Assembly (NCBI GenBank): GCA_948433085.1 | Contig: CAOJDP010000007.1 | Span: forward strand, 1 to 37,108 | Reading direction: 5' to 3' | DNA: 37,108 nucleotides | Source: an uncultured Caryophanales bacterium | GTDB taxonomy: Bacteria; Bacillota_I; Bacilli_A; RF39; UBA660 | Shown: positions 4,836 to 32,104 of the stretch, one piece after another | Layout of the letters: every line of letters starts with the position of its first letter | How positions within the stretch are numbered: the stretch's first letter is position 1 | Translations under genes and position numbers: made by a program | Notes under the pieces: model-generated | The model's input: only the letters and a program-made list of their open reading frames with translations | Databases searched by the model: none | Told to the model about the DNA's origin: nothing

Positions 4836-6059
4836 ATGAAAAAAATAGTTCAAATTATTTGTATTTTGGGATTGTTAATTCCATATATTTATATACCAGA
4901 TATGAAAGTAAAAGCAAAAACATTAGGCGATTTATTAAAAGAATTAGAGCAACAAAAAGCAGAATTAGAACAAAATAAACAACAAAAAGCAGAAACAGAA
5001 CAAGAAATAAAAGATGCACAGGCAGGAATTACACGTGCCAAAAATCAAATTGAAAAAATTTATAAAGATTTAATGGATTTGAATACTGAAATTGAACTAT
5101 TAAATGAAAGTATCGCAAAAAAAGAACAAGAAATGAAAGATATTATTAACTTCGTGCAAGTATCTAATGGAGAATCAGCTTATATGGAATATGCCTTTGG
5201 TGCCAAAGACTTTACCGATTTCATATACCGTATGGCAGTTTCAGAACAATTAACCAACTATAATGAACAACTCATTGAACAATTTAATCAAGATATAGAA
5301 GAATCCAAAAGAAAACAAGAAGAACTTAAGAAAAAACAAGCAGATTTAGCAGAACAACAAAAAGAATTAGAATCCAAAGCTGCACTCTTAGGCGAAGAAT
5401 TAAAAAACATAGAAGCAGTTGCAGTCGATTTAGAAGATATGCTAGACTATCAAAAAGAGATTATTCAAGTATATATTGACAAAGGTTGTAAAGAAAATGA
5501 AGATATAAAAACCTGTGGACGTGCATTGTTACCACCAGGGACATCCTTTTATAGACCAACAGAAACAGGCAGAATTACAAGTGAATGGGGCCCAAGGGAT
5601 TTCGCAGGAAGAAATTGGCATGAAGGAATCGATGTTGGAGTAGCAGAAGGAACACCTGTTTATGCAGTTGCGAATGGATTAGTATCACTCATTATGTATC
5701 AATATAAATGTGGTGGAAATATGGTTGTTGTACACCATAATATTAATGGAAAAACATATACCACAGTATATGCACATTTACTTTCAATCAGTGTAAGATC
5801 AGGGGATACAGTCAATCGGAATACATTAATCGGCTATTCAGGAGGTTATTCAACCTCAGCATATTATTCTGGTAGTTATGACCAATGCTCTTACGGAGCA
5901 CATCTTCATCTTACAGTAGCAACAGGATTATTTGGAAAAGGATTTGACTATGACAATTGGACATATGAATTAAACTATAAATATTCCATTAATCCAAGAG
6001 GTGTCATTAATTTTCCAGGGATGTATACTTATTGGTATGATCGCTTAACCGCATTTTAA
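4836..6059 (+). CDS. Secreted coiled-coil M23 peptidase, EnvC/PcsB-like murein hydrolase
   Basis: 407 residues. Residues 1-28 form a signal peptide (M-K-K, a hydrophobic core, then V-K-A-K-A... type end). Residues about 30-210 are E/K/Q-rich with heptads in two blocks, a long coiled coil like that of EnvC and PcsB family cell-separation hydrolases. The M23 (LytM) domain spans about 245-365 with zinc ligands H262 and D266 (W-H-E-G-I-D-V-G) and H358 of A-H-L-H-L; H356 is the expected catalytic histidine. All ligands are present, so it is probably active rather than a degenerate activator. It likely cuts peptide crosslinks in peptidoglycan at division or elongation sites. Insertion of a Ser/Tyr-rich stretch before the H-x-H is unusual. 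RBS GAGGTGTGAT precedes ATG 4836. Operon with YgjP upstream and a small ORF downstream. Confidence 0.9.
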   Translation: MKKIVQIICILGLLIPYIYIPDMKVKAKTLGDLLKELEQQKAELEQNKQQKAETEQEIKDAQAGITRAKNQIEKIYKDLMDLNTEIELLNESIAKKEQEMKDIINFVQVSNGESAYMEYAFGAKDFTDFIYRMAVSEQLTNYNEQLIEQFNQDIEESKRKQEELKKKQADLAEQQKELESKAALLGEELKNIEAVAVDLEDMLDYQKEIIQVYIDKGCKENEDIKTCGRALLPPGTSFYRPTETGRITSEWGPRDFAGRNWHEGIDVGVAEGTPVYAVANGLVSLIMYQYKCGGNMVVVHHNINGKTYTTVYAHLLSISVRSGDTVNRNTLIGYSGGYSTSAYYSGSYDQCSYGAHLHLTVATGLFGKGFDYDNWTYELNYKYSINPRGVINFPGMYTYWYDRLTAF

Positions 6060-6073
6060 AATAAAGGAGTAGT

Positions 6074-6289
6074 ATGGAGCATAAAATCATAGAGGATTAT
6101 GGGGAACATATCCTTTCCGAAGTTGAGTCATTTATAAAAGAGACACAAACAAATATAGAAAAGAGTAAAGGAACAGTTACAAACGAACAACTGAGTATTT
6201 TAAACCAAGCCCAAGATTTATATTTAAAAAAGTTAGAAACCTATAGTGATTTATATGAGGAACTAGAGCAGGAAAAGAATTTACAATAA
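6074..6289 (+). CDS. Small acidic coiled-coil hypothetical protein
   Basis: 71 residues, hydrophilic, rich in Glu and Lys, predicted to be entirely helical or coiled coil (I-L-S-E-V-E-S-F-I-K-E and L-Y-L-K-K-L-E-T-Y-S). Family not recognised. AAAGGAG sits at a good distance before ATG 6074 and the gap to the M23 gene is 14 bp, so it is very probably the third gene of that operon. The promoter of the next gene lies across its last codons. Confidence 0.7.
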   Translation: MEHKIIEDYGEHILSEVESFIKETQTNIEKSKGTVTNEQLSILNQAQDLYLKKLETYSDLYEELEQEKNLQ

Positions 6290-6308
6290 TTCTTTTTTTC
6301 GCTATAAT
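6280..6308 (+). promoter_or_regulatory. Sigma-A promoter for the flippase gene
   Basis: TTTACA (6280-6285), a 17-bp spacer, then TATAAT (6303-6308). It overlaps the stop codon of the preceding small gene and lies 24 bp before ATG 6332. Confidence 0.75.
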
Positions 6309-6331
6309 GGTAATATAGAAAGCGTGGTCAA

Positions 6332-7876
6332 ATGGAAACTTCAAGAACAAAGAATTCAATACGAAATTCAACAGTATCCCTTATCACACAAATACTTACA
6401 GTGGTAATTAATTTTATTGTAAAAACTGTTTTTATCCATACATTAGGCTCGGAATATTTAGGTGTAAATGGTTTGTTTTCTAATATTATTACTATGCTTT
6501 CTTTAGCAGACCTAGGCATTGGTGTCGCAATTCCTTATAGCTTATATAAACCACTTGCTGAGCATGATACCAACAAAATTAATATTTTCATGAAATTTTA
6601 TGCAAAAGTATACAATATGATAGGAATTATAGTATTGACATTTGGACTTTTACTCACACCATTTTTAAGTTTCCTAATTAAAGATATGCCCGAAATCTCC
6701 AATTTAAAATTTATATATGCATTATTCGTCATCCATTCAGCATCTAGTTATTTCTTTGTATATAAAAGATTTTTAATAGAATCCGACCAAAAAGGATTTA
6801 TTACTTCCATGATTGTATTTATTTTTTCTACCATTCTTTCAGTATTACAAATTATCATCTTGTTGCTTACAAAAAATTATATATTGTTTCTATTATCTAG
6901 TATTGTAATTGTAATTTTACAAAATATCTATATATCCCATAAAGCAATGCAATTATATCCCTTCCTAAAGAAAAAAAATGTAGGCAAAATGAAAAAAGAA
7001 GATATTCAAGATATTACAAAAAATGTATCTTCATTACTCATTTATCGTGTGGGAAACGTGGTTACAAATGGTACTGATAATATTATTATTTCTAAATTTA
7101 TTGGACTGATAGTGGTAGGCCTTTATTCTAACTATTTATTAATCATTAACTCATTAAATTTAGTATTGACACAAATCTTTAATGCAATTACTGCAAGTAT
7201 TGGAAATCTAGTTGTAACTACAAATGGTAAAAGAAGTTCTAATATTTATGAAAAATTAAATTTATTTAACTTTTGGCTATATGCATTATGTGGAAGTTGT
7301 CTATTATCCTTACTGAATCCATTTATTGAACTATGGATTGGAAAAGAATATTTATTGTCCTTTTCAGTTGTATTTTTATTGGTATTAAACTTTTATATCA
7401 CAGGGATGCAAGCAGTTACAACAGCATTTCGAAATGCTTATGGACTTTTTTATAAAGCAAAATATAGACCGCTTGTGATGATTGCAATTAATATTGTAGT
7501 TTCAATTATTTTAGTACATTTTATGGGAATTACAGGTGTTGTATTAGGAACAATTACGAGTCGTATTTTAACAGTCGCATGGTTAGATCCTTGTATTGTA
7601 TATCGTTATGGCTTTCGAAAACAACCCAAACGCTATTTTATTAAATATATATTATTTTTCTTACTTTTTTTAGGAACATCATTTATTGCTTACCTGACTG
7701 TAAATCTTATTCCAAATGGTAATTTCTTATGGTTTATTTTAAAAGCAATGATTTGTTTCCTTCTAACAAATGGTATTTTTTATCTTATATTTAAAGATAC
7801 AGACGATTTCAAATATTTCTATCAAAAATTTTATAACCTAATAGGATCTAAAATCGCTAAAATTCTCCATATATAA
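6332..7876 (+). CDS. Wzx-like polysaccharide flippase (MOP superfamily)
   Basis: 514 residues with about 12-14 hydrophobic segments. The N-terminus N-S-I-R-N-S-T-V-S-L-I-T-Q then F-I-H-T-L-G-S-E-Y-L-G-V-N-G-L-F and S-L-A-D-L-G-I-G-V-A is the typical start of lipopolysaccharide/teichoic or capsule flippases of the MATE/MOP superfamily (polysaccharide biosynthesis protein family). It should move an undecaprenyl-linked glycan across the cytoplasmic membrane. No glycosyltransferase or polymerase genes adjoin it, so the glycan is not identifiable; it is not MurJ-like in its opening motif. Its ribosome-binding site is weak (GTGGT). Own promoter; no terminator is evident before the Cse60-like gene 26 bp later, so they may be co-transcribed. 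Confidence 0.85.
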   Translation: METSRTKNSIRNSTVSLITQILTVVINFIVKTVFIHTLGSEYLGVNGLFSNIITMLSLADLGIGVAIPYSLYKPLAEHDTNKINIFMKFYAKVYNMIGIIVLTFGLLLTPFLSFLIKDMPEISNLKFIYALFVIHSASSYFFVYKRFLIESDQKGFITSMIVFIFSTILSVLQIIILLLTKNYILFLLSSIVIVILQNIYISHKAMQLYPFLKKKNVGKMKKEDIQDITKNVSSLLIYRVGNVVTNGTDNIIISKFIGLIVVGLYSNYLLIINSLNLVLTQIFNAITASIGNLVVTTNGKRSSNIYEKLNLFNFWLYALCGSCLLSLLNPFIELWIGKEYLLSFSVVFLLVLNFYITGMQAVTTAFRNAYGLFYKAKYRPLVMIAINIVVSIILVHFMGITGVVLGTITSRILTVAWLDPCIVYRYGFRKQPKRYFIKYILFFLLFLGTSFIAYLTVNLIPNGNFLWFILKAMICFLLTNGIFYLIFKDTDDFKYFYQKFYNLIGSKIAKILHI

Positions 7877-7902
7877 GTTTTATACTCAGTCTAGGTGATG
7901 AT

Positions 7903-8076
7903 ATGAAAGTAAAACTATTTGATGAAGGTCATGAAAAAGATTTAGAAGCAGCAATCAATGAATTTTTAAGCGAAGAAAAAGTAGAAGTAATTGATATCAA
8001 ATATCAAGTAGCAGTCAGTGTTTTTTCAGAAGAACAGGTTTTCTGTTTTTCCGCAATGATTGTCTATCAAAAGTAG
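7903..8076 (+). CDS. Cse60-like small sporulation protein
   Basis: A 57-residue gene beginning M-K-V-K-L-F-D-E-G-H-E-K-D-L-E and ending C-F-S-A-M-I-V-Y-Q-K. The start, the I-D-I-K-Y-Q-V core and the C-F-S-A-M-I end match what I know of the Cse60 family (about 60 residues; sigma-E-controlled in B. subtilis, function unknown). The start ATG is preceded by AGGTGAT at ideal spacing. A strong terminator follows about 45 bp downstream. It fits with spoIID in this window as a trace of sporulation ability. The family call is from memory of the motif, not a search. Confidence 0.75.
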   Translation: MKVKLFDEGHEKDLEAAINEFLSEEKVEVIDIKYQVAVSVFSEEQVFCFSAMIVYQK

Positions 8077-8119
8077 GTAAGAAGTAGAGATTGCAGTACT
8101 AAAATATTATACCTATATT

Positions 8120-8150
8120 ATGTAGTTAATTTTTTACTACATTTTTTTTA
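8120..8150 (+). terminator. Rho-independent terminator after the Cse60-like gene
   Basis: A 7-bp perfect stem (ATGTAGT at 8120-8126, ACTACAT at 8136-8142), a 9-nt loop and a run of T. The remaining bases to 8330 are AT-rich; I found no clear promoter, CtsR heptamer pair or CIRCE element there. Confidence 0.75.
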
Positions 8151-8330
8151 TTATTTTTTCGTTTATTGACTTTAAAAATTTTTCCAATTCCCAAGAATAA
8201 AAAAGAAACGACAGAATCCTTCTATTTTGTATGATATTTTAAAAAAGATAAAAAAATGAATAAATTGTTGTTTAAAAATTAACTTATCTTAACATTATAT
8301 ACATAGAATAAATAGAGGAGATGGTATCGA

Positions 8331-10649
8331 ATGTATGGAAATTTTACAGAAGAAGCAAGAAAAGTATTAGTAGAAGCAAAAAAAGAAATGTATGAATTAA
8401 AGCACCCATATGTAGGGAGTGAACACCTATTACTTGCAATTTTGAATGGAGATAATAGCGTATCCCACAAACTAAAAGAATATGGACTAGATTATCTAAA
8501 ACTAAAAGAAGAAATTATAGCAATCATAGGAACAGGAAGTGAATCCAATCACTATTTCCTACGAACACCCCTTTTAAAAAGAATCATTGAAAATGCGATT
8601 ATAGATAGCAAAGAAAATAACAATGGAGAAGTTACCATTGAACACCTGTTTTCTAGTATGTTAGAAGAAGGAGAAGGCGTAGCAATCCGAATTTTGCTAG
8701 GGATGAATATAGATATTGATCAATTATACTCTGAATTTGTTTGTCCAGTAAGTACTCCTAAAAAACGAAAAAAAGGAAAAAAACTACTATTAGAAGAATT
8801 AGGAATTGACTTAACCGCCAAAGCGCAAAACGGAGAATTAGATCCAGTCATTGGTAGAGAGGAAGAAATTAAAAGAGTATTAGAAGTACTTGCACGTAGA
8901 ACGAAAAATAATCCCATTTTAATTGGGGAAGCAGGTGTTGGAAAAACTGCCATTGTAGAAGAATTATCTCGTTTAATTGTCAGTGGAGAAGTTCCTATGC
9001 AGTTAAAAAATAAACGAATTATTAGTTTGGATATGGCCAGTGCTGTTGCAGGAACAAAATATCGAGGTGAGTTTGAAGAACGTATACATAAAATATTAAA
9101 GGAAATAGAGGATAATGATGATATTATTTTATTCATTGATGAAATTCATACATTAGTAGGCGCAGGTGGAGCGGAAGGCGCAATCGATGCTTCTAATATT
9201 TTTAAACCAGCGCTTGCACGCAATAAACTAAGGTGCATTGGTGCAACTACAACTGCAGAATATAAAAAATACATTGAGAAAGATAGTGCTTTAGAACGTA
9301 GATTTCAAAAAATAATAGTGGATATTCCAAACAAAGAAAGTGTCAAAAAAATTTTGATGAAATTAAAAAGTATTTATGAGAAATATCATTTTGTAGAAAT
9401 CAGTGAAGAAATGATTGATTTGATGATTGATTTATCAGGAAAATATATATACGATCGAAATGAGCCAGATCGTTCTATTGACATTTTAGATGAAGTATGT
9501 GCGAAAGTAAGTTTAAAAGAAAACAAAGATATTAAAAAATATAATCAATTAAAAAAAGAGGTAGAAGAATTGATTATGCGTAAAAACAATGCTGTAATTG
9601 CGCATGATTTTGAAGCAGCATCCACATTAAAAGAAGAGGAAAATCGTTATTTAGATGCACTCAATCATTTGGAATTAAAATTATATCAAAGAAACCGCAA
9701 AGCAGTAACCAAAGAAGATATTGCACAAGTCATTCATTTAAAAACAAAAATACCTGTTTATGAATTATTGTCTAATAATGAAAAAGCAATTTCAGTACTT
9801 GAAAAAAATTTAAAAAATAAAATAGTAGGTCAAGATCATGCCTTAGAAGAAGTAATGCACATAGCCAAAAAAATAAAACTTGGATTTTATGATCAAGGGT
9901 GTTATTCCATGCTTTTTATGGGACCTAGTGGCGTTGGAAAAACAGAATTGTCAAGTATCTTTGGAGAAAATATGGTAGGGACTGAAAATGTTATTCGGTT
10001 AGATATGAGTGAATATGCGGAAGCGCATTCTATCAGTAAAATTGTAGGAGCACCTCCAGGATATGTTGGGTATGATGATTCCAAAAACGTATTAGAAGAG
10101 ATTCGCAATAAACCTTATTCCGTTTTAATTCTAGATGAAATTGAAAAAGCACATCCTAATATCATCAATCTATTTTTTCAAATTTTAGAAGAAGGAAAAA
10201 TAAAAGCTTCCAGTGGAACAATTGTAAGATTTGATCATGTGATTATTTTAATGACTTCTAATATTGGGTTTACAGATATTCATGTTGGATTCCATGAAGA
10301 AAATCAAGATACCATTTTAAGTAAATTAAAAGAAAACTTTAGTGTTGCGTTTGTAAATAGAATTGATAATATAATTGTATTTCATAAGCTTACAAAAGAA
10401 AATATTACAGAAATTATTCATACAAAAATGAAACAATTAAAGGCAAAATATGCGAAAAAAAATATCATCGTTCAAATCAAACCATCTATCATAGAAGAAA
10501 TGTGTACACTATCTAGTTATGCAGAATATGGTGCTAGAAAAATTGATAAAATTATGAAAGATCAAATAGAAAATCAAATTATTGATGCAATCATCGCAAA
10601 TAAGAAAACAATTGAAATTGCAACAATTATGAAAGAGAAAGTAAGATAA
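8331..10649 (+). CDS. clpC: ClpC-type AAA+ unfoldase of the Clp protease
   Basis: 772 residues. Residues 1-140 are a double Clp-N domain ([24 protein letters not shown]). The first AAA+ module has Walker A G-E-A-G-V-G-K-T at 199-206 and Walker [13 protein letters not shown]-like middle motif (about 415-445, [14 protein letters not shown]) marks ClpC rather than ClpA or ClpB. The second AAA+ has Walker A G-P-S-G-V-G-K-T at 531-538 and [15 protein letters not shown] after the S-N-I-G-F stretch is the likely ClpP-docking tripeptide. It unfolds substrates into ClpP. In Bacilli clpC normally sits in a ctsR-mcsA-mcsB-clpC operon; here it stands alone between terminators. GAGGAGATGG provides the RBS. 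Confidence 0.95.
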
Positions 10650-13097: not shown

Positions 13098-13103
13098 AAT
13101 GTA

Positions 13104-13320
13104 AATGCTTTGAACAAGAGGAGTATAATGGGATTTTTGGTAGAGAGCCTGTGGAAGGTGTGAACAGGTAAAAAGAACATTAGAAGGTAGCTTGGGAGCT
13201 GAATATTTGAATCATAGTAGAATATTTCGTAAATATGCGTTAAATAAATAAGATAACATAAGTTATAAATTAAGGTGGTACCACGTAATCACGTCCTTAG
13301 CGCAGGATGTGATTTTTTTA
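13104..13320 (+). promoter_or_regulatory. T-box riboswitch, most likely tRNA-Val responsive
   Basis: The leader has the stem I hallmarks AGAGAG (13143-13148), CCTGT paired with ACAGG, and GGTGTGAA between them. The T-box proper AAGGTGGTACCACG lies at 13272-13285. The terminator follows: ATCACGTCCT (13288-13297) pairs with AGGATGTGAT (13304-13313) with one wobble, then seven T. Binding of uncharged tRNA would favour the antiterminator. The specifier loop reads G-A-A-G-G-T-A. Immediate spacing after GAA suggests GGT (13186-13188), but GTA (13187-13189) codes Val. The acceptor-binding bulge TGGT requires discriminator A, as in tRNA-Val, whereas bacterial tRNA-Gly normally has U. The valS sequences downstream support Val. 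Confidence 0.92.
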
Positions 13321-13342
13321 ACAATTAGAAAGAGGGAATGTT

Positions 13343-13837
13343 ATGGAAACAATTATTATTGGAAAAGAAGAAATCCAAAATGCGAAATTAAAAGTTTATA
13401 AAAAGAAAATAATTTGCTATAACGAAAAAAGGGAAATTCTAATATATGAAAAAGAGAATAAAATTCATATTCCAACGTTATATGTTATGAATTTAAAAAA
13501 TAAACAATTACAAAGAAAATTTAAAGTTCAGATACAAGAAGATAAATTAGAAGATCTTGTTCAAATCATAACTTGTAACTTTCGTTTTTCAAATAATAAT
13601 AATAAATTAGTAAAAAATTATTTGAAATATATTAAAGAATATTATACTTATCTTGTTGATTTTCATTCTATACGGGATCAACTGAAATCCTTTGCTGCAC
13701 AAGATGGAGCTTTTAAACCTCAAATTCTGCCAATCGAAGACGTTATGCAATTGGATAATCAATTTTACACAGTTACAAGAGAACAAGAACTTGCTTTTCA
13801 AAGCTTTCAGCATAAAAGGAAAAGAAAAAGTTTATAA
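13343..13837 (+). CDS. Unknown basic protein, first ORF behind the T-box
   Basis: 164 residues, rich in Lys, Ile and Asn. I recognise no family. There is no signal peptide or membrane helix. The visible segments are an N-terminal beta-rich part (M-E-T-I-I-I-G-K-E-E-I), a helical middle (K-L-V-K-N-Y-L-K-Y-I-K-E-Y-Y) and a basic end (H-K-R-K-R-K-S-L). GAGGGAATGTT precedes ATG 13343, so translation is plausible. It sits between the T-box terminator and the decayed valS, exactly where an aminoacyl-tRNA synthetase gene is expected, yet it does not look like one. The end overlaps another open frame, and a late frameshift in an otherwise longer protein cannot be excluded. Confidence 0.55.
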   Translation: METIIIGKEEIQNAKLKVYKKKIICYNEKREILIYEKENKIHIPTLYVMNLKNKQLQRKFKVQIQEDKLEDLVQIITCNFRFSNNNNKLVKNYLKYIKEYYTYLVDFHSIRDQLKSFAAQDGAFKPQILPIEDVMQLDNQFYTVTREQELAFQSFQHKRKRKSL

Positions 13838-14042
13838 AAAAATTCAAATTGTATATCTCATTAAATTGTATGAAAATAATTTAAAAATATAGAAAAAGAA
13901 CAAAATGAAAAAGATGAGTTTTAGAGAAGTTAGATATTTTGATAAAATAAATAATTTTAAATAAAATGAATCGATTCATAGATAGAAATAATTCTGAAAT
14001 TGAAAAATAAAAAAGTAATCATAAATATAGAGAGAAGAAAAG

Positions 14043-14750
14043 ATGTTAGAAACAAAGTATAATCATAAAGAAGTTGAGAAAAATAAATATGAAATCTGAA
14101 AAGAAAGAGACTATTTTAGAGTAGAAAATCAAAATATATACAACCTTATAAAGTATTTTAATTTATTGTAAAAGATGGGTAAGTAGATGTGTTGTGATGC
14201 CAGGAATGAAGGTGTATAAAAAAGAACATGCAATCCGTTTAAAGAACAAGAGATGAATGGTTAAAAATTGTGTGGAATTCGAAAGAATATACATAGACAA
14301 TGGAAAAATTAGGACTTAAACTATGATAAAAAGTGATTCATGTATAGAGTTGTTTGTATAAAAAAACGTTTGAAGACTTGTATAAGAAAGGTCTCAACTA
14401 TCTGAAGAAATGTTGTATGAATTGGAATGTAGAAGCAAAATTATCAAACAAAGAGGTTAGTTATAAAGGTATAGAAATTGCTTTTATCATTTAAAATACT
14501 ATTTGGAAGATCGTAAAGACTATTTTAAAGTCAAAACTGTAAAAATGAAACTTTGGAGATATCGTAATTTTCTGTCGATCCTGAAGACAAGGAGTGCAAA
14601 CACCACATTAGAAATTACCAATTGTAAAATAATTCCAAATGTTAGAGACTATCACATAAATGATATTGTAAAAATTACACCCAGTTTCACAACTCTTTAT
14701 TTATAAAAATTTGGAAAGCATCATTAGGAATTGCCAAGCAATATTTTTGG
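14043..14750 (+). pseudogene. valS: Decayed bacterial-type valyl-tRNA synthetase, N-terminal third
   Basis: Piecing frames together gives a ValRS N-terminus in the correct order. ATG 14043 starts M-L-E-T-K-Y-N-H-K-E-V-E-K-N-K-Y-E-I and then hits TGA where Trp is expected. The P-G-M of the bacterial W-L-P-G-M-D-H motif is at about 14200; M-E-K-L-G-L at 14300; D-L-Y-K-K-G-L at 14375; N-W-N-V-E-A-K at 14420; F-Y-H-L-K-Y-Y-L-E-D at 14482; D-P-E-D-K-E-C-K-H-H-I near 14580-14620; V-K-I-T-P near 14675; K-F-G-K-H-H at 14706. These use all three + frames with many stops. The P-P-P-N-V-T-G-K-L-H-L-G-H region is deleted. The remaining two thirds of the protein are absent. This is established by motif order, not by a search. 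Confidence 0.85.
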
Positions 14751-14772
14751 TAGAAGGAAAGGAAAATGAAAG

Positions 14773-17205
14773 ATGTTAGATAAAAAATATAATGCACAAG
14801 AAAAAGAAACAAAATGGTTAGATTACTGGAAGGAAAATAAAATTTATGAATTTAAACCAGATCAAAGAGAAGTATTTTCAATTGACACACCACCGCCAAC
14901 TGTAAATGGAAAAATTCATATAGGGCATATATTTTCGTATTCACAAACGGAAATGATAGCAAGATATAAAAGATTAAGAGGATTTAATATTTTCTATCCA
15001 TTTGGGTTTGATGATAATGGTTTACCAAGTGAAAGATTAGTAGAAAAAGAACAAGGTAAAAAAGCACATGAGATTGGTAGAGAAGAATTTTCAAAATTGT
15101 GTTATGAAACAACGGATAAATATGAAGCAGAATTTCAAGAATTATTTAGTAAAATGGGTGTTAGTACAGATTGGGATATCCATTATAAAACAGTTAGTCC
15201 ATCAACAATTAAAATTAGTCAAGCATCATTTTTAGATTTAATTCATAAAGGACATTGCTATCATAAGGAAAGTCCAGCACTTTGGTGTAATGAATGTTTA
15301 ACCTCTATTGCACAAGCAGAACTAGAAACAAAAACAATGAAGACTACATTTAATTATATTCGATTTAAAACTGTCGAAGATGGCCAAGAATTTACAATAG
15401 CGACAACAAGACCAGAATTATTACCAGCAATCGTTTGTGTTTTTGTAAATCCTAATGATGAAGAACACAAATCTTTAATTGGAAAAACAGCACATATTCC
15501 AGTAATAGATGTAGAAGTACCAATTATGGCAGATGAAAAAGTTGCAATAGATAAAGGGACAGGAGTAGTTATGTGTTGTACTTTTGGAGACCAAACCGAT
15601 ATAGAATGGTGGAAGAAATATAATTTACCACTTAAATATATTTTTACAGATGATGGAAGAATTATACACGAAGTTCCAAATTATGGTGGATTAAAAATTA
15701 AAGAAGCGAGAAAACAAATCATAGAAGATTTAACAGCTGGTGGATTTGTAGTTAAAATCGAGGAATTAGAACATGAAGTACAAACACATGAAAGATGTGG
15801 CAAAGAAGTGGAATACTCTGTAATGAAACAATGGTTTATAGATATTATGAATCATAAAGAGGACTTCTTGAAAATTGGATCTGATATTAAATGGTATCCA
15901 GAACACATGAAAAGCAGATATAATGAATGGGTGGAGAATATCATGTGGGATTGGTGTATCTCAAGACAAAGATATTTTGGTGTACCATTTCCCGTTTGGT
16001 ATTGTAAAGAATGTGGTAACCCAATATTTGCGAGGTTAGAAGATTTACCAGTGAATCCATTGGTAGATAAGCCTCATATGGATGCTTGTAAATGTGGATG
16101 CTCTGCTTTTATACCAGAAACCGATGTCATGGATACATGGGCAACCTCTTCTGTAACACCATTAATCAATATGAGATACGGGGAAAAAGATAATTATGAA
16201 TCATTTTTAAAACCAATGAGCATTCGAACAAATGCTTCAGATATAATTAGAACATGGGATTTTTATACTATAGTGAAAAGCTTCTATCATTTTGGAATTC
16301 GTCCTTGGGATAATGTGATGATTTCAGGATTTGTAATGGCCAATAAAGGGGAAAAAATAAGCAAAAGTAAAGGAAATACCAAATTAGAACCAATGGATTT
16401 AATTCATCAATATTCGGCCGATGTCATTCGTTATTGGGCTGGTTCTGGAAGACTTGGTACAGATATAGCGTTTAGTGAAGAAACACTTCTTAGAGGACGT
16501 AAATTAGTAAATAAACTATGGAATGTCGCAAAATTTATAGAAATGCATCTAGCTGATTATGAAGAGAAAGCGTTTCATAATTATGAATATATAGATAAAT
16601 GGATATTAGGTAAATATCAAGATATGGAATCAGGATTTATAAAATATCTTGAGGAATATGAAGTAGGACTTGCATTAAATTATTTAGAAAAATTCTTCTG
16701 GAATTTCTGTGATAATTATATTGAAATTGTTAAACATAGATTATATAGACCTGAAGAATTTGGGGAAATTCCAAGATACTCAGGACAAAAGACAGTCTAT
16801 ACACTACTTTATAAATTGCTTCAAAATTTTAGTATTTTCTTTCCATTCATTACTGAAGAAATTTATCAAGAATTATATCATAATATGAAATCCATTCATT
16901 TAACACAAATAGAATTATTCAAATTTGATTTCACAAATGAAATGAAAAATGGAGACATAATAATGGATATTATTCGTCAAGCAAGAGGAGAAAAAACACT
17001 CAATAATGTATCCCTTAAAACACCTATCAAAAATTTTGAATTAAGTGTAAATAAAGAATTAGAGGATGCAATAAATAAGTCTATCAAAGACTTTAAAGCA
17101 ACATTGACGATTCAAAATTTAAAATTAAATCATATGAATGAAGGTTATAAGATAAATGATATAGAATTAGAAATAGAAAATCCAAACGAAAATGCCATCG
17201 CCTAA
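14773..17205 (+). CDS. valS: Valyl-tRNA synthetase, archaeal/Rickettsia-type
   Basis: 810 residues, class Ia synthetase that charges tRNA-Val. The HIGH motif is H49-I-G-H52 inside T-P-P-P-T-V-N-G-K-I-H-I-G-H; the KMSKS loop is K528-I-S-K-S532. The editing domain (about 190-350) has A-T-T-R-P-E-L-L-P and G-T-G-V-V-M-C-C-T-F-G-D-Q-T-D. F-G-F-D-D-N-G-L-P-S-E-R replaces the bacterial P-G-M-D-H-A-G-I-A-T-Q. W-D-W-C-I-S-R-Q-R-Y-F-G-V is followed by a CxxC-type zinc knuckle. These features match archaeal and Rickettsia ValRS, not the roughly 880-residue bacterial form, and the bacterial C-terminal coiled coil is missing. AAGGAAAGG lies before ATG 14773. No promoter is obvious, so it probably depends on the T-box promoter 1.7 kb upstream. 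Confidence 0.93.
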   Translation: MLDKKYNAQEKETKWLDYWKENKIYEFKPDQREVFSIDTPPPTVNGKIHIGHIFSYSQTEMIARYKRLRGFNIFYPFGFDDNGLPSERLVEKEQGKKAHEIGREEFSKLCYETTDKYEAEFQELFSKMGVSTDWDIHYKTVSPSTIKISQASFLDLIHKGHCYHKESPALWCNECLTSIAQAELETKTMKTTFNYIRFKTVEDGQEFTIATTRPELLPAIVCVFVNPNDEEHKSLIGKTAHIPVIDVEVPIMADEKVAIDKGTGVVMCCTFGDQTDIEWWKKYNLPLKYIFTDDGRIIHEVPNYGGLKIKEARKQIIEDLTAGGFVVKIEELEHEVQTHERCGKEVEYSVMKQWFIDIMNHKEDFLKIGSDIKWYPEHMKSRYNEWVENIMWDWCISRQRYFGVPFPVWYCKECGNPIFARLEDLPVNPLVDKPHMDACKCGCSAFIPETDVMDTWATSSVTPLINMRYGEKDNYESFLKPMSIRTNASDIIRTWDFYTIVKSFYHFGIRPWDNVMISGFVMANKGEKISKSKGNTKLEPMDLIHQYSADVIRYWAGSGRLGTDIAFSEETLLRGRKLVNKLWNVAKFIEMHLADYEEKAFHNYEYIDKWILGKYQDMESGFIKYLEEYEVGLALNYLEKFFWNFCDNYIEIVKHRLYRPEEFGEIPRYSGQKTVYTLLYKLLQNFSIFFPFITEEIYQELYHNMKSIHLTQIELFKFDFTNEMKNGDIIMDIIRQARGEKTLNNVSLKTPIKNFELSVNKELEDAINKSIKDFKATLTIQNLKLNHMNEGYKINDIELEIENPNENAIA

Positions 17206-17639: not shown

Positions 17640-18149
17640 ATGCAGAGCAAAAAAGGTTTTACCTTAATCGAATTACTAGCTGTAATCGTAATATTAGCAA
17701 TTATCGCTTTAATTGCAACCCCAATGATTATGGATGTAATTGATAAAGCAAGAAAAGGAGCTGTTGAAAATAGTGCCTTAGGATATGTAGAAGGTATTGA
17801 AAAATACGCCGTATATGGAATGATTGAACAGGGTGGCCAAATTAGTTTTAATGAAGGTGTATATGATGTAAAAGACGCTGCCTTAACAGGAATTGAATAC
17901 AAAGGCGATATGCCAAGTTCTGGTTGGGTTGCTGTAGATGCCAAAGGAAATGTAAAAGCAGCATATTTAAAATTTGCTAGTTATGGAGGATATGTTGGGT
18001 ATACCAATAAAGACCATGCACAAGCCATTTTAACAGACACTACATTTAGTAGTGAAACAATCAAAGAAACAGATGGAAATCCAGCAACTATAACAGTTAG
18101 TAATGCAGAATCTAAAGTTTCAACTGCTTTAGCAGCTGCGAGAACTTAA
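17640..18149 (+). CDS. Type IV pilin-like protein 1 (prepilin-type N-terminal domain)
   Basis: 169 residues. A six-residue leader (M-Q-S-K-K-G) is followed by F-T-L-I-E-L-L, the class III prepilin cleavage/methylation motif with Glu at +5; the hydrophobic alpha-1N helix runs to about residue 30. The middle (D-K-A-R-K-G-A-V-E-N-S-A-L) and the alpha-1C part are almost identical in the next two genes. The C-terminal beta-domain diverges (Q-G-G-Q-I-S-F-N-E-G-V) but keeps Y-K-G-D-M-P, G-W-V-A-V-D and the V-G-Y-T/D-H-A-Q-A end. No cysteine pair. Secreted via a prepilin peptidase and assembled into a pilus or pseudopilus; the assembly ATPase, platform and peptidase genes are not in the window. The upstream region differs from that of copies 2 and 3. 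Confidence 0.9.
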   Translation: MQSKKGFTLIELLAVIVILAIIALIATPMIMDVIDKARKGAVENSALGYVEGIEKYAVYGMIEQGGQISFNEGVYDVKDAALTGIEYKGDMPSSGWVAVDAKGNVKAAYLKFASYGGYVGYTNKDHAQAILTDTTFSSETIKETDGNPATITVSNAESKVSTALAAART

Positions 18150-18167
18150 GCGAAGAATCGCTTTTTC
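18148..18167 (+). terminator. Terminator overlapping the stop of pilin 1
   Basis: AAGCGA (18148-18153), 4-nt loop, TCGCTT (18158-18163), then T run. The stem begins within the TAA stop codon. Confidence 0.8.
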
Positions 18168-18223
18168 TTTACAACAATCTTTGACATATCCATACATAAA
18201 TATGTAAAGTTCGACAAAATAGA

Positions 18224-18253
18224 TTGACTACTATTCGAAAAATGTAGTATAGT
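18224..18253 (+). promoter_or_regulatory. Promoter of pilin 2
   Basis: TTGACT (18224-18229), 18 bp, TATAGT (18248-18253). A CGACAAAAT block lies just upstream of the -35. The same layout and the same leader (GTAGAAAGTAGAGGAGAATA) precede pilin 3. Confidence 0.75.
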
Positions 18254-18282
18254 GTAATTGTAGAAAGTAGAGGAGAATAAAT

Positions 18283-18801
18283 ATGAAGAACAAAAAAGGT
18301 TTTACCTTAATTGAATTACTAGCAGTAATCGTAATATTAGCAATCATTGCTTTAATTGCAACACCAATGATTATGGATGTTATCGATAAAGCAAGAAAAG
18401 GAGCTGTTGAAAATAGTGCCTTAGGATATGTAGAAGGTGTTGAAAAATACGCTGTATATGGAATGATTGATAATGGAGGATATGTATCAGTAAACGCAGG
18501 TGTTTATTTTGTAGGAGATCCAAATATCAATGCAGGAGAAACAGGTGGACCATACACAAATATTTTAAATGAAGTGGAATACAAAGGAGATCTTCCAGAA
18601 GCTGGTTGGGTTGCAATCGATGAAAAAGGAAATGTAACTGCAGCATTCTTAAAATTTAAAAGCTATGCTTCATATATAGGTTATACAAATTCAAAACATG
18701 CACAAGCAATTTTTAGTAAAGCAGACTATGATTCAGTAAGTGTTACGAAAACTACAGATGTGAATGAACTTGAAGAAACTATGAATGGAAAATTAAAATA
18801 A
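18283..18801 (+). CDS. Type IV pilin-like protein 2
   Basis: 172 residues: leader M-K-N-K-K-G, cleavage before F-T-L-I-E-L-L, Glu at +5, and one hydrophobic helix. The first 65 or so residues are nearly identical to copies 1 and 3, and 147 bp (18349-18495) are identical in DNA to copy 3. The C-terminal domain has a longer insertion than copy 1 (N-I-N-A-G-E-T-G-G-P-Y-T-N-I-L-N) and its own tail (T-T-D-V-N-E-L-E-E-T-M). Own promoter and own terminator, so the three genes can be expressed independently. AGAGGAG before the start is a strong RBS. Confidence 0.9.
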   Translation: MKNKKGFTLIELLAVIVILAIIALIATPMIMDVIDKARKGAVENSALGYVEGVEKYAVYGMIDNGGYVSVNAGVYFVGDPNINAGETGGPYTNILNEVEYKGDLPEAGWVAIDEKGNVTAAFLKFKSYASYIGYTNSKHAQAIFSKADYDSVSVTKTTDVNELEETMNGKLK

Positions 18802-18817
18802 TAGATTGCGGTAATTC

Positions 18818-18843
18818 AAAAATTGACATTTGTCAATTTTTTA
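18818..18843 (+). terminator. Terminator after pilin 2
   Basis: A perfect 10-bp stem AAAAATTGAC/GTCAATTTTT (18818-18827 and 18832-18841) with a 4-nt loop and T tract; the A/T ends make it partly bidirectional. Confidence 0.8.
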
Positions 18844-19013
18844 TTATGTAGTAAATGAAAATAAGCTTTTGCTTATCTATATTATTCTTCACATTTACTA
18901 ATGTTATGAGCTTTATAATTAAGAAACTTATATAAAAAAACGCATCAAAGCAGTGAAAGAAATTGAACGTATCGTATAAAAATGTAAAATTTAAACAAAA
19001 ATCGACAAAATTA

Positions 19014-19043
19014 TTGACTATTGTTTTTGCAATATGGTACAGT
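19014..19043 (+). promoter_or_regulatory. Promoter of pilin 3
   Basis: TTGACT (19014-19019), 18 bp, TACAGT (19038-19043), again with TCGACAAAAT directly upstream; a copy of the pilin 2 promoter. The bases between (18844-19005) hold a small hairpin (ATAAGC/GCTTAT at 18861-18876) and nothing else I can name. Confidence 0.7.
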
Positions 19044-19072
19044 ATAAATGTAGAAAGTAGAGGAGAATAAAT

Positions 19073-19594
19073 ATGAAGAACAAAAAAGGTTTTACCTTAA
19101 TCGAATTACTTGCGGTAATCGTAATATTAGCAATCATCGCTTTAATTGCAACACCAATGATTATGGATGTTATCGATAAAGCAAGAAAAGGAGCTGTTGA
19201 AAATAGTGCCTTAGGATATGTAGAAGGTGTTGAAAAATACGCTGTATATGGAATGATTGATAATGGAGGATATGTATCAGTAAACCCAGGTGTTTATGTT
19301 GTAGGTGAAGCAGATGTTACAACAGGATCTGATTTATACACAAATATTTTAAATCACGTTGAATACAAAGGAGACCTTCCTAGATCTGGATGGGTAGCTG
19401 TAGATGACAAAGGAAATGTAGTTGCTGCGTATTTAGAATTTGCAAGTTACAAAGGATTTATAGCATACACAGTTGCAGATCATGCAAAAGCAGATGCAAA
19501 ATATAAACAAGATTCAATCGCAGCTATGACAAAAGATAGCACAATCGAAGAAGCAAAAGCAGCAGTTGTTGGATTATTACATCCAACTGCATAA
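19073..19594 (+). CDS. Type IV pilin-like protein 3
   Basis: 173 residues, same plan: leader M-K-N-K-K-G, F-T-L-I-E-L-L with Glu +5, and a hydrophobic helix. The N-terminal module is identical to copy 2 down to synonymous sites for 147 bp (19139-19285). The C-terminal part diverges (E-A-D-V-T-T-G-S-D-L-Y) but keeps H-V-E-Y-K-G-D-L-P, S-G-W-V-A-V-D-D-K-G and an A-Y-T-V-A-D-H-A-K end. The tail is Ala/Lys-rich. It most likely arose by duplication of the copy 2 cassette together with its promoter. Confidence 0.9.
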   Translation: MKNKKGFTLIELLAVIVILAIIALIATPMIMDVIDKARKGAVENSALGYVEGVEKYAVYGMIDNGGYVSVNPGVYVVGEADVTTGSDLYTNILNHVEYKGDLPRSGWVAVDDKGNVVAAYLEFASYKGFIAYTVADHAKADAKYKQDSIAAMTKDSTIEEAKAAVVGLLHPTA

Positions 19595-30974: not shown

Positions 30975-31265
30975 ATGGAGAATAACCGAAGAGAAAAAAG
31001 ACAGTATACAGAAGAATTTAAAACACAAATCGTAAATTTATATAACAATGGAAAAAAGCATTGTGAGCTTATTAGAGAATATGAACTAACTCCCTCCGCA
31101 TTAAATAACTGGATAAAGCAGTATAATACAAGTGGTTTGTTTAAAGCAAAAGACAATCGAACAGAAGAAGAAAATCGCCTTATAGAATTAGAAAAAGAAA
31201 ATAAGCAGTTAAGAATGGAAAATGATATTTTAAAGCAAGCAGCGCTGATAATGGGACGAAAATAA
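30975..31265 (+). CDS. IS3-family OrfA (HTH, leucine zipper)
   Basis: 96 residues. The IS3/IS911-type helix-turn-helix is at about 8-55 (Y-T-E-E-F-K-T-Q-I-V-N-L-Y, L-T-P-S-A-L-N-N-W-I-K-Q-Y), followed by a leucine-zipper-like helix (L-I-E-L-E-K-E-N-K-Q-L-R-M-E-N-D) and I-L-K-Q-A-A. It binds the IS ends and supplies the N-terminus of the OrfAB transposase. Its last sense codon is AAA directly before TAA (31260-31265), preceded by an A. Lys-tRNA could slip one base back there into the orfB frame. Confidence 0.9.
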   Translation: MENNRREKRQYTEEFKTQIVNLYNNGKKHCELIREYELTPSALNNWIKQYNTSGLFKAKDNRTEEENRLIELEKENKQLRMENDILKQAALIMGRK

Positions 31266-31306
31266 AAGTAATAAAAACAAATCAAGACAAGTATAGTATC
31301 AGTGCT

Positions 31307-32104
31307 ATGTGTAAAACTTTAAAAGTGTCCAGAGCTCTTGTCTATTATGAAAGAAAAAATAAACGAGAAGATAAAGAACTAGAAGAATTAATTATAAAAC
31401 TATTTAAGGAAAGTAGGAACAATTATGGGTCAAGAAAAATCAAAGTAAAGCTACAAGAATTAGGATACCAAGTAAGCCTCCGAAGAATAAGAAGGATTAT
31501 GAACTTGAATGGATTAGTAAGTAATTATACAGTAAAACAATTTAAAGTCCATAAAACAAGTTGCAATGAAGAAAAAGTAGAAAATCTGTTAAATCGAGAA
31601 TTTAATCGTGAAAACCAACTAGATGTAGTAGTAAGTGATTTAACCTATGTGAATGTTGCAGGGAAATGGAATTATATTTGTCTAATACTTGACTTGTGGA
31701 ATCGAGAAATCATAGGTTATGCAGCAGGAGTACATAAGAATGCAGAACTAGTTTATCACGCATTTAGAAAAATCCCTTATGACTTAAGCAGAATCAATAT
31801 ATTCCATACCGACCGAGGAAATGAATTTAAAAATAAAATAATAGAAGAATTAATAGAAGAATTAATAGAAGCATTTGGAATAAAGAGAAGCTTATCTAAA
31901 AAAGGGTGTCCGTATGACAATGCAGTAGCAGAAGCAACTTATAAAATTATAAAAACAGAGTTTGCATATAACAGAAGATTTTCCTCATTTGAGGAGTTAG
32001 AGTGCGAGTTATTTGATTATGTAAACTGGTATAATAATATTCGTATTCATGGCTCCTTAGATTATAAAACTCCTGTTGTTTACAGACAGCAAATGTCCTT
32101 ATAA
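31307..32104 (+). CDS. IS3-family OrfB transposase, DDE integrase domain
   Basis: 265 residues from ATG 31307, but the frame is open upstream to the orfA end and reads N-Q-D-K-Y-S-I-S-A-M-C, the usual OrfB beginning. The functional product is therefore probably an OrfAB fusion made by -1 frameshifting near 31260. An HTH_21-like region lies at about 25-75 (N-Y-G-S-R-K-I-K-V-K-L). The rve core has the DDE triad: D in V-V-S-D-L-T-Y-V, D in F-H-T-D-R-G-N-E-F, and E in Y-D-N-A-V-A-E-A. The stop lies within the right inverted repeat. All catalytic residues are present. Confidence 0.9.
   Translation: MCKTLKVSRALVYYERKNKREDKELEELIIKLFKESRNNYGSRKIKVKLQELGYQVSLRRIRRIMNLNGLVSNYTVKQFKVHKTSCNEEKVENLLNREFNRENQLDVVVSDLTYVNVAGKWNYICLILDLWNREIIGYAAGVHKNAELVYHAFRKIPYDLSRINIFHTDRGNEFKNKIIEELIEELIEAFGIKRSLSKKGCPYDNAVAEATYKIIKTEFAYNRRFSSFEELECELFDYVNWYNNIRIHGSLDYKTPVVYRQQMSL

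Follow-up and report, generated by a model that had tools for sequence, protein, structure and literature searches.

The window analysed here is a stretch of 37,108 nucleotides from an uncultured Caryophanales gut bacterium of the family UBA660, whose genome is a fragmented metagenome-assembled genome (MAG) of 102 contigs, 91% complete. Within it, a gene for an archaeal-type valine–tRNA ligase (ValRS), valS, stands directly behind the decayed 5′ part of a bacterial valS, and both lie downstream of a Val-type T-box leader. This arrangement is probably the relic of a valS-targeting mobile element, which brings its own substitute for the gene it breaks. The core of the locus is made up as follows:

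13101–13301, plus strand: Val-type T-box leader of the original valS operon (Rfam RF00230, 131 bits), now upstream of the replacement gene
13343–13837, plus strand: open reading frame (ORF) of 164 amino acids, an ancestral operon member, between the T-box and the fossil
14043–14685, plus strand: fossil of the bacterial valS (residues 1–274), with frameshifts and stops, recognised by collinear tblastn matches
14773–17205, plus strand: archaeal-type valine–tRNA ligase of 810 amino acids (PRK13208, 985 bits), the sole ValRS found in the genome

The cut-off for PRK13208 (NCBIfam, NF009687) is 738 bits, and the same protein scores 539 bits against the bacterial model PRK05729, below its cut-off of 704. 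For a congener's bacterial ValRS the pattern is reversed (622 bits for PRK13208, 1135 for PRK05729). The C-terminal tRNA-binding arm, Pfam PF10458, is present in the congener's enzyme and absent from that of the window, so that the initial annotation, which read the intact gene as archaeal in type and without the bacterial tail, was correct on both counts. Among 14 control genomes, of which four are archaea, PRK13208 passed its cut-off in four, the passing genomes being counted and not named. A search of the genome (91% complete) for a second ValRS found none.

The preceding wreck was also rightly taken for a bacterial valS scattered over three frames. With a bacterial ValRS of the same family as tblastn query, residues 1–31 match 14043–14135, residues 106–196 match 14249–14485 and residues 196–274 match 14482–14685; with the congeners' ValRS as query, the collinear chain reaches 147 bits, the best of 200 shuffles giving 119. 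To this we can add that the fossil covers the first third of the bacterial gene only, the part 5′ of the insertion site discussed below, and that no trace of bacterial residues past about 275 was detected in the 3 kb downstream of the intact gene. The T-box, for which the RF00230 gathering cut-off is 93 bits, has a candidate Val specifier, GTA, at 13187–13189, inside a block, GAAGGTAGCTTGGGAGCT, which hardly differs from its counterpart in the T-boxes preceding the congeners' bacterial valS. A homologous T-box precedes bacterial valS in the congeners and in other members of the family, and the leader that once stood before the bacterial gene of the window now precedes both, as had been claimed. 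The 164-amino-acid ORF gave no match in family searches, and has 26–31% identity to the 165-amino-acid ORFs directly 5′ of bacterial valS in the congeners G118 and G119.

The decisive comparison is with these close relatives. In each of the other four species of the genus valS is intact and bacterial, and the archaeal type is absent. As far as their contigs reach, the gene order is clpC-like gene, spoIID, T-box, HD-domain gene, the 165-amino-acid ORF (in G118 and G119), bacterial valS and pilins, with dnaB/dnaI-like genes further downstream. The window has this order minus the HD gene and with valS exchanged, and is syntenic with the congeners on both flanks: clpC-like gene and spoIID on the 5′ side; pilins, DUF2207 and dnaB/dnaI-like genes on the 3′ side. 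Directly 3′ of the archaeal valS comes the ancestral pilin gene. At 17640–19594 the window has three type IV pilin-like genes in tandem, whose N-termini are nearly identical, and pilin-like genes are also found behind valS in the congeners. Since four of four congeners keep bacterial valS at the syntenic locus, the displacement of this essential enzyme in place, which the initial annotation proposed, happened inside the genus. The shared gene order places the switch after the genus had formed and speaks against an assembly or binning artefact that joined two genomes. The fragmentation of the MAG is the one point in favour of such an artefact, which the syntenic flanks, the recurrence of the same arrangement in independent assemblies and the lack of any other ValRS in the genome make scarcely credible.

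How the archaeal gene could have arrived is suggested by insertion loci that we retrieved by scanning GTDB genomes with an alignment of archaeal-type proteins. In three chicken-gut genera (L194, Candidatus Onthousia faecipullorum; L195, Candidatus Ventrenecus avicola; L233, a chicken Bacilli MAG), an open and host-specific 5′ part of bacterial valS runs directly into a near-identical element. DNA identity among the three is 74–79% in the valS part and 97.7–99.8% in the element, with the jump at a single point between GT(A/T)AAG and ACTACACCC, the codons for VVK and ITP at about residue 271; the target site in valS is GGTGTTGTTAAAATTACTCC. The archaeal valS is the first gene of the element, its ATG lying 93 bp past the junction ACACC and 107 bp past GTAAAG in these three loci, and is followed by genes for an HTH_36 protein, a PemK/MazF-like protein, a CAP-domain protein and transporters. 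Both ends can be seen in G006, where the same left end closes one contig and a matching inverted repeat, TGTACCATTGGGTGTAG, followed by the 3′ part of valS, opens another; here the ends of the element in valS are 17-bp inverted repeats, with CTACACCCAATGGTACA at both ends. Related elements occupy the same valS site in MAGs labelled Clostridia (L236, L244 and L228), and single contigs with bacterial 5′ part, archaeal valS and bacterial 3′ part in succession are available for G505/L214 and G503/L244. In G502, the genome of L236, a 553-amino-acid large serine recombinase (Resolvase, Recombinase and Zn ribbon domains) stops 2 bp short of the ORF for the 3′ part of valS; relatives of this recombinase elsewhere in the family sit at other loci. 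Intact insertions of an element-borne substitute into the original gene, with a sharp boundary, are thus present in relatives, and this mechanism is the new part of the present account. Two other readings were discarded. Recurrent broken valS ends at residue ~283 were taken for assembly breaks until the contig ends of G006 showed an inverted-repeat sequence foreign to valS, later recognised as the element, and supposed inserts within the archaeal gene (matches ~3.3 kb long) proved to owe their extra length to upstream bacterial valS 5′ parts.

Comparison with these insertions adds two features to the window:

14668–14673, plus strand: inferred insertion site (V-K codons of VVKITP), from alignment with the left junctions of L194, L195, L233, L214, L236 and L244
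14674–14772, plus strand: probable degenerate left end of the element, including the ribosome-binding site GAAAGGAAAATG, from alignment to intact left ends

The fossil of the window thus ends at the codons where intact elements sit. The archaeal ATG follows ACACC by 91 bp in the window and by 92–93 bp in six intact insertions, the window shares the ribosome-binding stretch GAAAGGAAAATG unchanged with L194, L195 and L233, and the 107-bp stretch of the window aligns globally to the left end of L195 with a score of 57, the highest value for shuffled sequence being 35. We therefore favour, with a probability of roughly 0.78, the reading that an integrative element was inserted into the host's bacterial valS between the codons for VVK and ITP and was afterwards lost for the most part, its remains lying in the window. 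The element would enter bacterial valS at about residue 271, and its first gene, the archaeal-type valS, would lie some 0.1 kb in from the left end, so that insertion would destroy the host's ValRS gene and simultaneously provide a substitute. Because that substitute comes first in the element, the host promoter and T-box operon would now transcribe it, and in the window transcription through the T-box presumably drives the archaeal valS. In this lineage, deletion would later have removed the remainder of the element together with the 3′ two thirds of bacterial valS, and the bacterial 5′ third would have decayed into the fossil.

Several observations weigh against this reading. The window has no recombinase, no right end of the element and no bacterial 3′ remnant, and since it keeps no element gene besides valS it is at most a relic. 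The middle 65 bp of its putative left end, taken alone, are not significantly similar to intact left ends, and competitive alignment of these 65 bp clearly prefers neither the element ends nor native valS; arrival of the window's archaeal valS by such an insertion, a conclusion drawn from sequence, is for this reason good but not proven. The gene may also be second-hand, taken over by ordinary recombination from a relative in which the arrangement was already present. As to the element itself, the link between recombinase and valS comes from one genome only, on two contigs of one MAG, and no close homologues of the G502 recombinase were found in other insertion carriers. No relaxase or secretion genes were recognised in the partial element ORFs that were read or in the eight proteins scanned, from contigs that end inside the element. 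Only a 33% relative was found in IMG/VR, and public phage and plasmid records gave only distant ValRS (<60% identity), so that a circular or plasmid form of the element was not found.

The archaeal type is widespread in the family. Among 117 genera, each represented by one genome that was searched for either type of ValRS, about 26 had the archaeal type and about 80 the bacterial one; the archaeal-type proteins mostly have 68–90% identity to that of the window, with one at 49%. On a tree of 25 concatenated genes from the ribosomal-protein region of 60 genera, the two types are intermingled, with 20 Fitch changes where 19.4 are expected for shuffled labels, and 21 separate archaeal-type clades remain once weak branches are collapsed. 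All 210 pairs compared have a higher identity in their archaeal ValRS (median 82%) than in their ribosomal proteins (median 66%), whereas bacterial ValRS and ribosomal proteins both stand at 65%, and the archaeal ValRS tree is discordant with the ribosomal tree. We conclude that essential ValRS has been replaced by the archaeal type about 20 separate times in this family. In the phylum as a whole, a close relative of the archaeal type was present in five of 392 genomes, three of this family and two of other families of the class (78% and 51%).

Pieces of bacterial valS lie beside the archaeal gene at 13 loci (the window, L194, L195, L233, L236, L244, L228, L246, L214, L198, L203, G056 and G062), and seven of these have the same bacterial 5′ piece, or its decayed rest, at the same distance from the archaeal gene. 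This recurrent junction, with pieces directly beside the archaeal gene at no fewer than 13 loci, makes it very improbable that two unrelated events were combined, an archaeal-type valS having been acquired elsewhere and moved alongside after the bacterial gene had decayed, even if the varied neighbourhoods of the archaeal-type gene across the family would fit such a history. At most archaeal-type loci of the family there is a clean swap without a fossil, which would agree with ordinary xenologous displacement in situ, through homologous or illegitimate recombination with a relative's DNA (by natural transformation, for example) and with no element active in the lineage. The HD-domain gene often ends at the start of valS in carriers of either kind, and the first 21 bases are nearly identical between archaeal-type and bacterial valS, which would favour recombination at this point; the clean swaps may perhaps have arisen there. 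Tandem pairs, in which a complete archaeal-type valS is followed after 21–45 bp by a complete bacterial valS, occur in L210, L216 and L242 and fit the same process. The window, however, retains the bacterial 5′ third, broken exactly at the codons used by intact elements, and random recombination would not favour such a break. For the window we therefore regard displacement of this ordinary kind as unlikely, and insertion of the element as the better account. A different tandem arrangement is found in L265, where two archaeal-type ValRS genes of different lineages (5188–7539 and 8001–10406) have 51% and 81% identity to the window. An AlbA-like ORF 3′ of valS in two genomes was considered as a companion gene and dropped, as it is not general.

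Three relatives have further genes in the interval that separates the archaeal valS from the 3′ part of the bacterial one. Among these is a SagB-YcaO fusion, with maturase domains of the thiazole/oxazole-modified microcin (TOMM) type:

L039 (G062), 6443–8575, minus strand: SagB-YcaO fusion
L198, 12432–14549: SagB-YcaO fusion, separated from valS by one extra gene
L214, 11053–13185: SagB-YcaO fusion

In all three the fusion is accompanied by a Cys/Gly-rich precursor-like peptide of 35–38 amino acids (CACVTGGGGCACDDGT). This suggests, but does not show, that the archaeal ValRS confers self-immunity against a peptide acting on the bacterial enzyme. One could go further, although we consider this rather doubtful, and see the element as a poison-and-antidote gene drive, some copies of which carry a cassette whose thiazole/oxazole peptide, matured by SagB/YcaO, inhibits bacterial ValRS, with the archaeal ValRS as the immune copy. 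Insertion would then remove the sensitive enzyme and make the element indispensable, which would explain the repeated sweep through the family, and a cassette peptide aimed at ValRS would mean a new class of antibiotic target with a natural resistant enzyme at hand. No peptide-modifying genes stand beside the synthetase in the window, and within the family sample the fusion occurs in G062 only, the sole other match being a distant YcaO in G006, ~5.7 kb 5′ of the interrupted valS. A review of translation-targeting ribosomally synthesised and post-translationally modified peptides names AspRS as a target, and a text search of it for ValRS was empty (PMC7136475). Two neighbourhoods may be recorded beside these. 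G006:C21 (L086) has a different YcaO cluster, with radical-SAM and nucleotidyltransferase-like proteins, ~4–9 kb 5′ of its element-interrupted bacterial valS. On a Streptomyces plasmid (L330, NZ_CP109170.1, 11938–14502), a ValRS nearer the archaeal type (35% identity, 509 bits) is flanked by radical-SAM, arginine-deiminase-family and hydrolase genes, and is possibly a self-resistance copy.

Other synthetases vary too. The IleRS of the window genome (G000:C70, L179) has 929 amino acids against 1035–1053 in the congeners (L157, L158 and L156), possibly a second synthetase swap, and ProRS of two lengths (~475 and 566 amino acids) lies beside valS in different genera (L049, L056, L058, L067 and L073 versus L054, L061 and L068). 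Elsewhere in the window, 30975–32104 holds what by eye appears to be an IS3-family transposase gene pair.

The displacement of core translation genes is regarded as a rare matter of chance. In this family of uncultured gut Bacillota one such gene has been displaced repeatedly, a likely vehicle and a target site can be named, and the genomes offer snapshots of successive stages, from intact insertions and decaying flanks to clean swaps and tandem pairs. By hitting an essential gene and bringing the substitute, an element would become fixed in its host on arrival. We found no literature report of an element that inserts into valS or brings a whole substitute synthetase, although subscription papers were poorly covered and this is weak evidence. 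The leader and specifier are those of the T-box valS operons of Bacillota, as found with the family's bacterial valS, except that the T-box of the window now precedes an archaeal-type enzyme. MupA/IleS2 of staphylococcal plasmids is likewise a divergent aminoacyl-tRNA synthetase that spreads horizontally on mobile DNA, but it is added beside the resident enzyme, whereas the valS element destroys the resident gene; we know of no ValRS inhibitor that would drive the latter case. As in other instances of xenologous displacement in situ, a distant homologue takes over the locus and regulator of the resident gene, although the valS case has a vehicle and a fixed breakpoint, and is repeated some 20 times in one family. 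A close parallel in mechanism is offered by the integrative mobilizable and conjugative elements of the Tn4451/Tn5397 type (PMC5704250), which also insert site-specifically within a protein-coding gene, have a large serine recombinase at one end and share a short core between element ends and target. Integrative mobilizable elements with serine recombinases disrupt genes dispensable to the host, and others keep one end of the gene that they target (PMC5704250); the valS element, by contrast, hits an essential gene and restores its function by a whole, distantly related enzyme.

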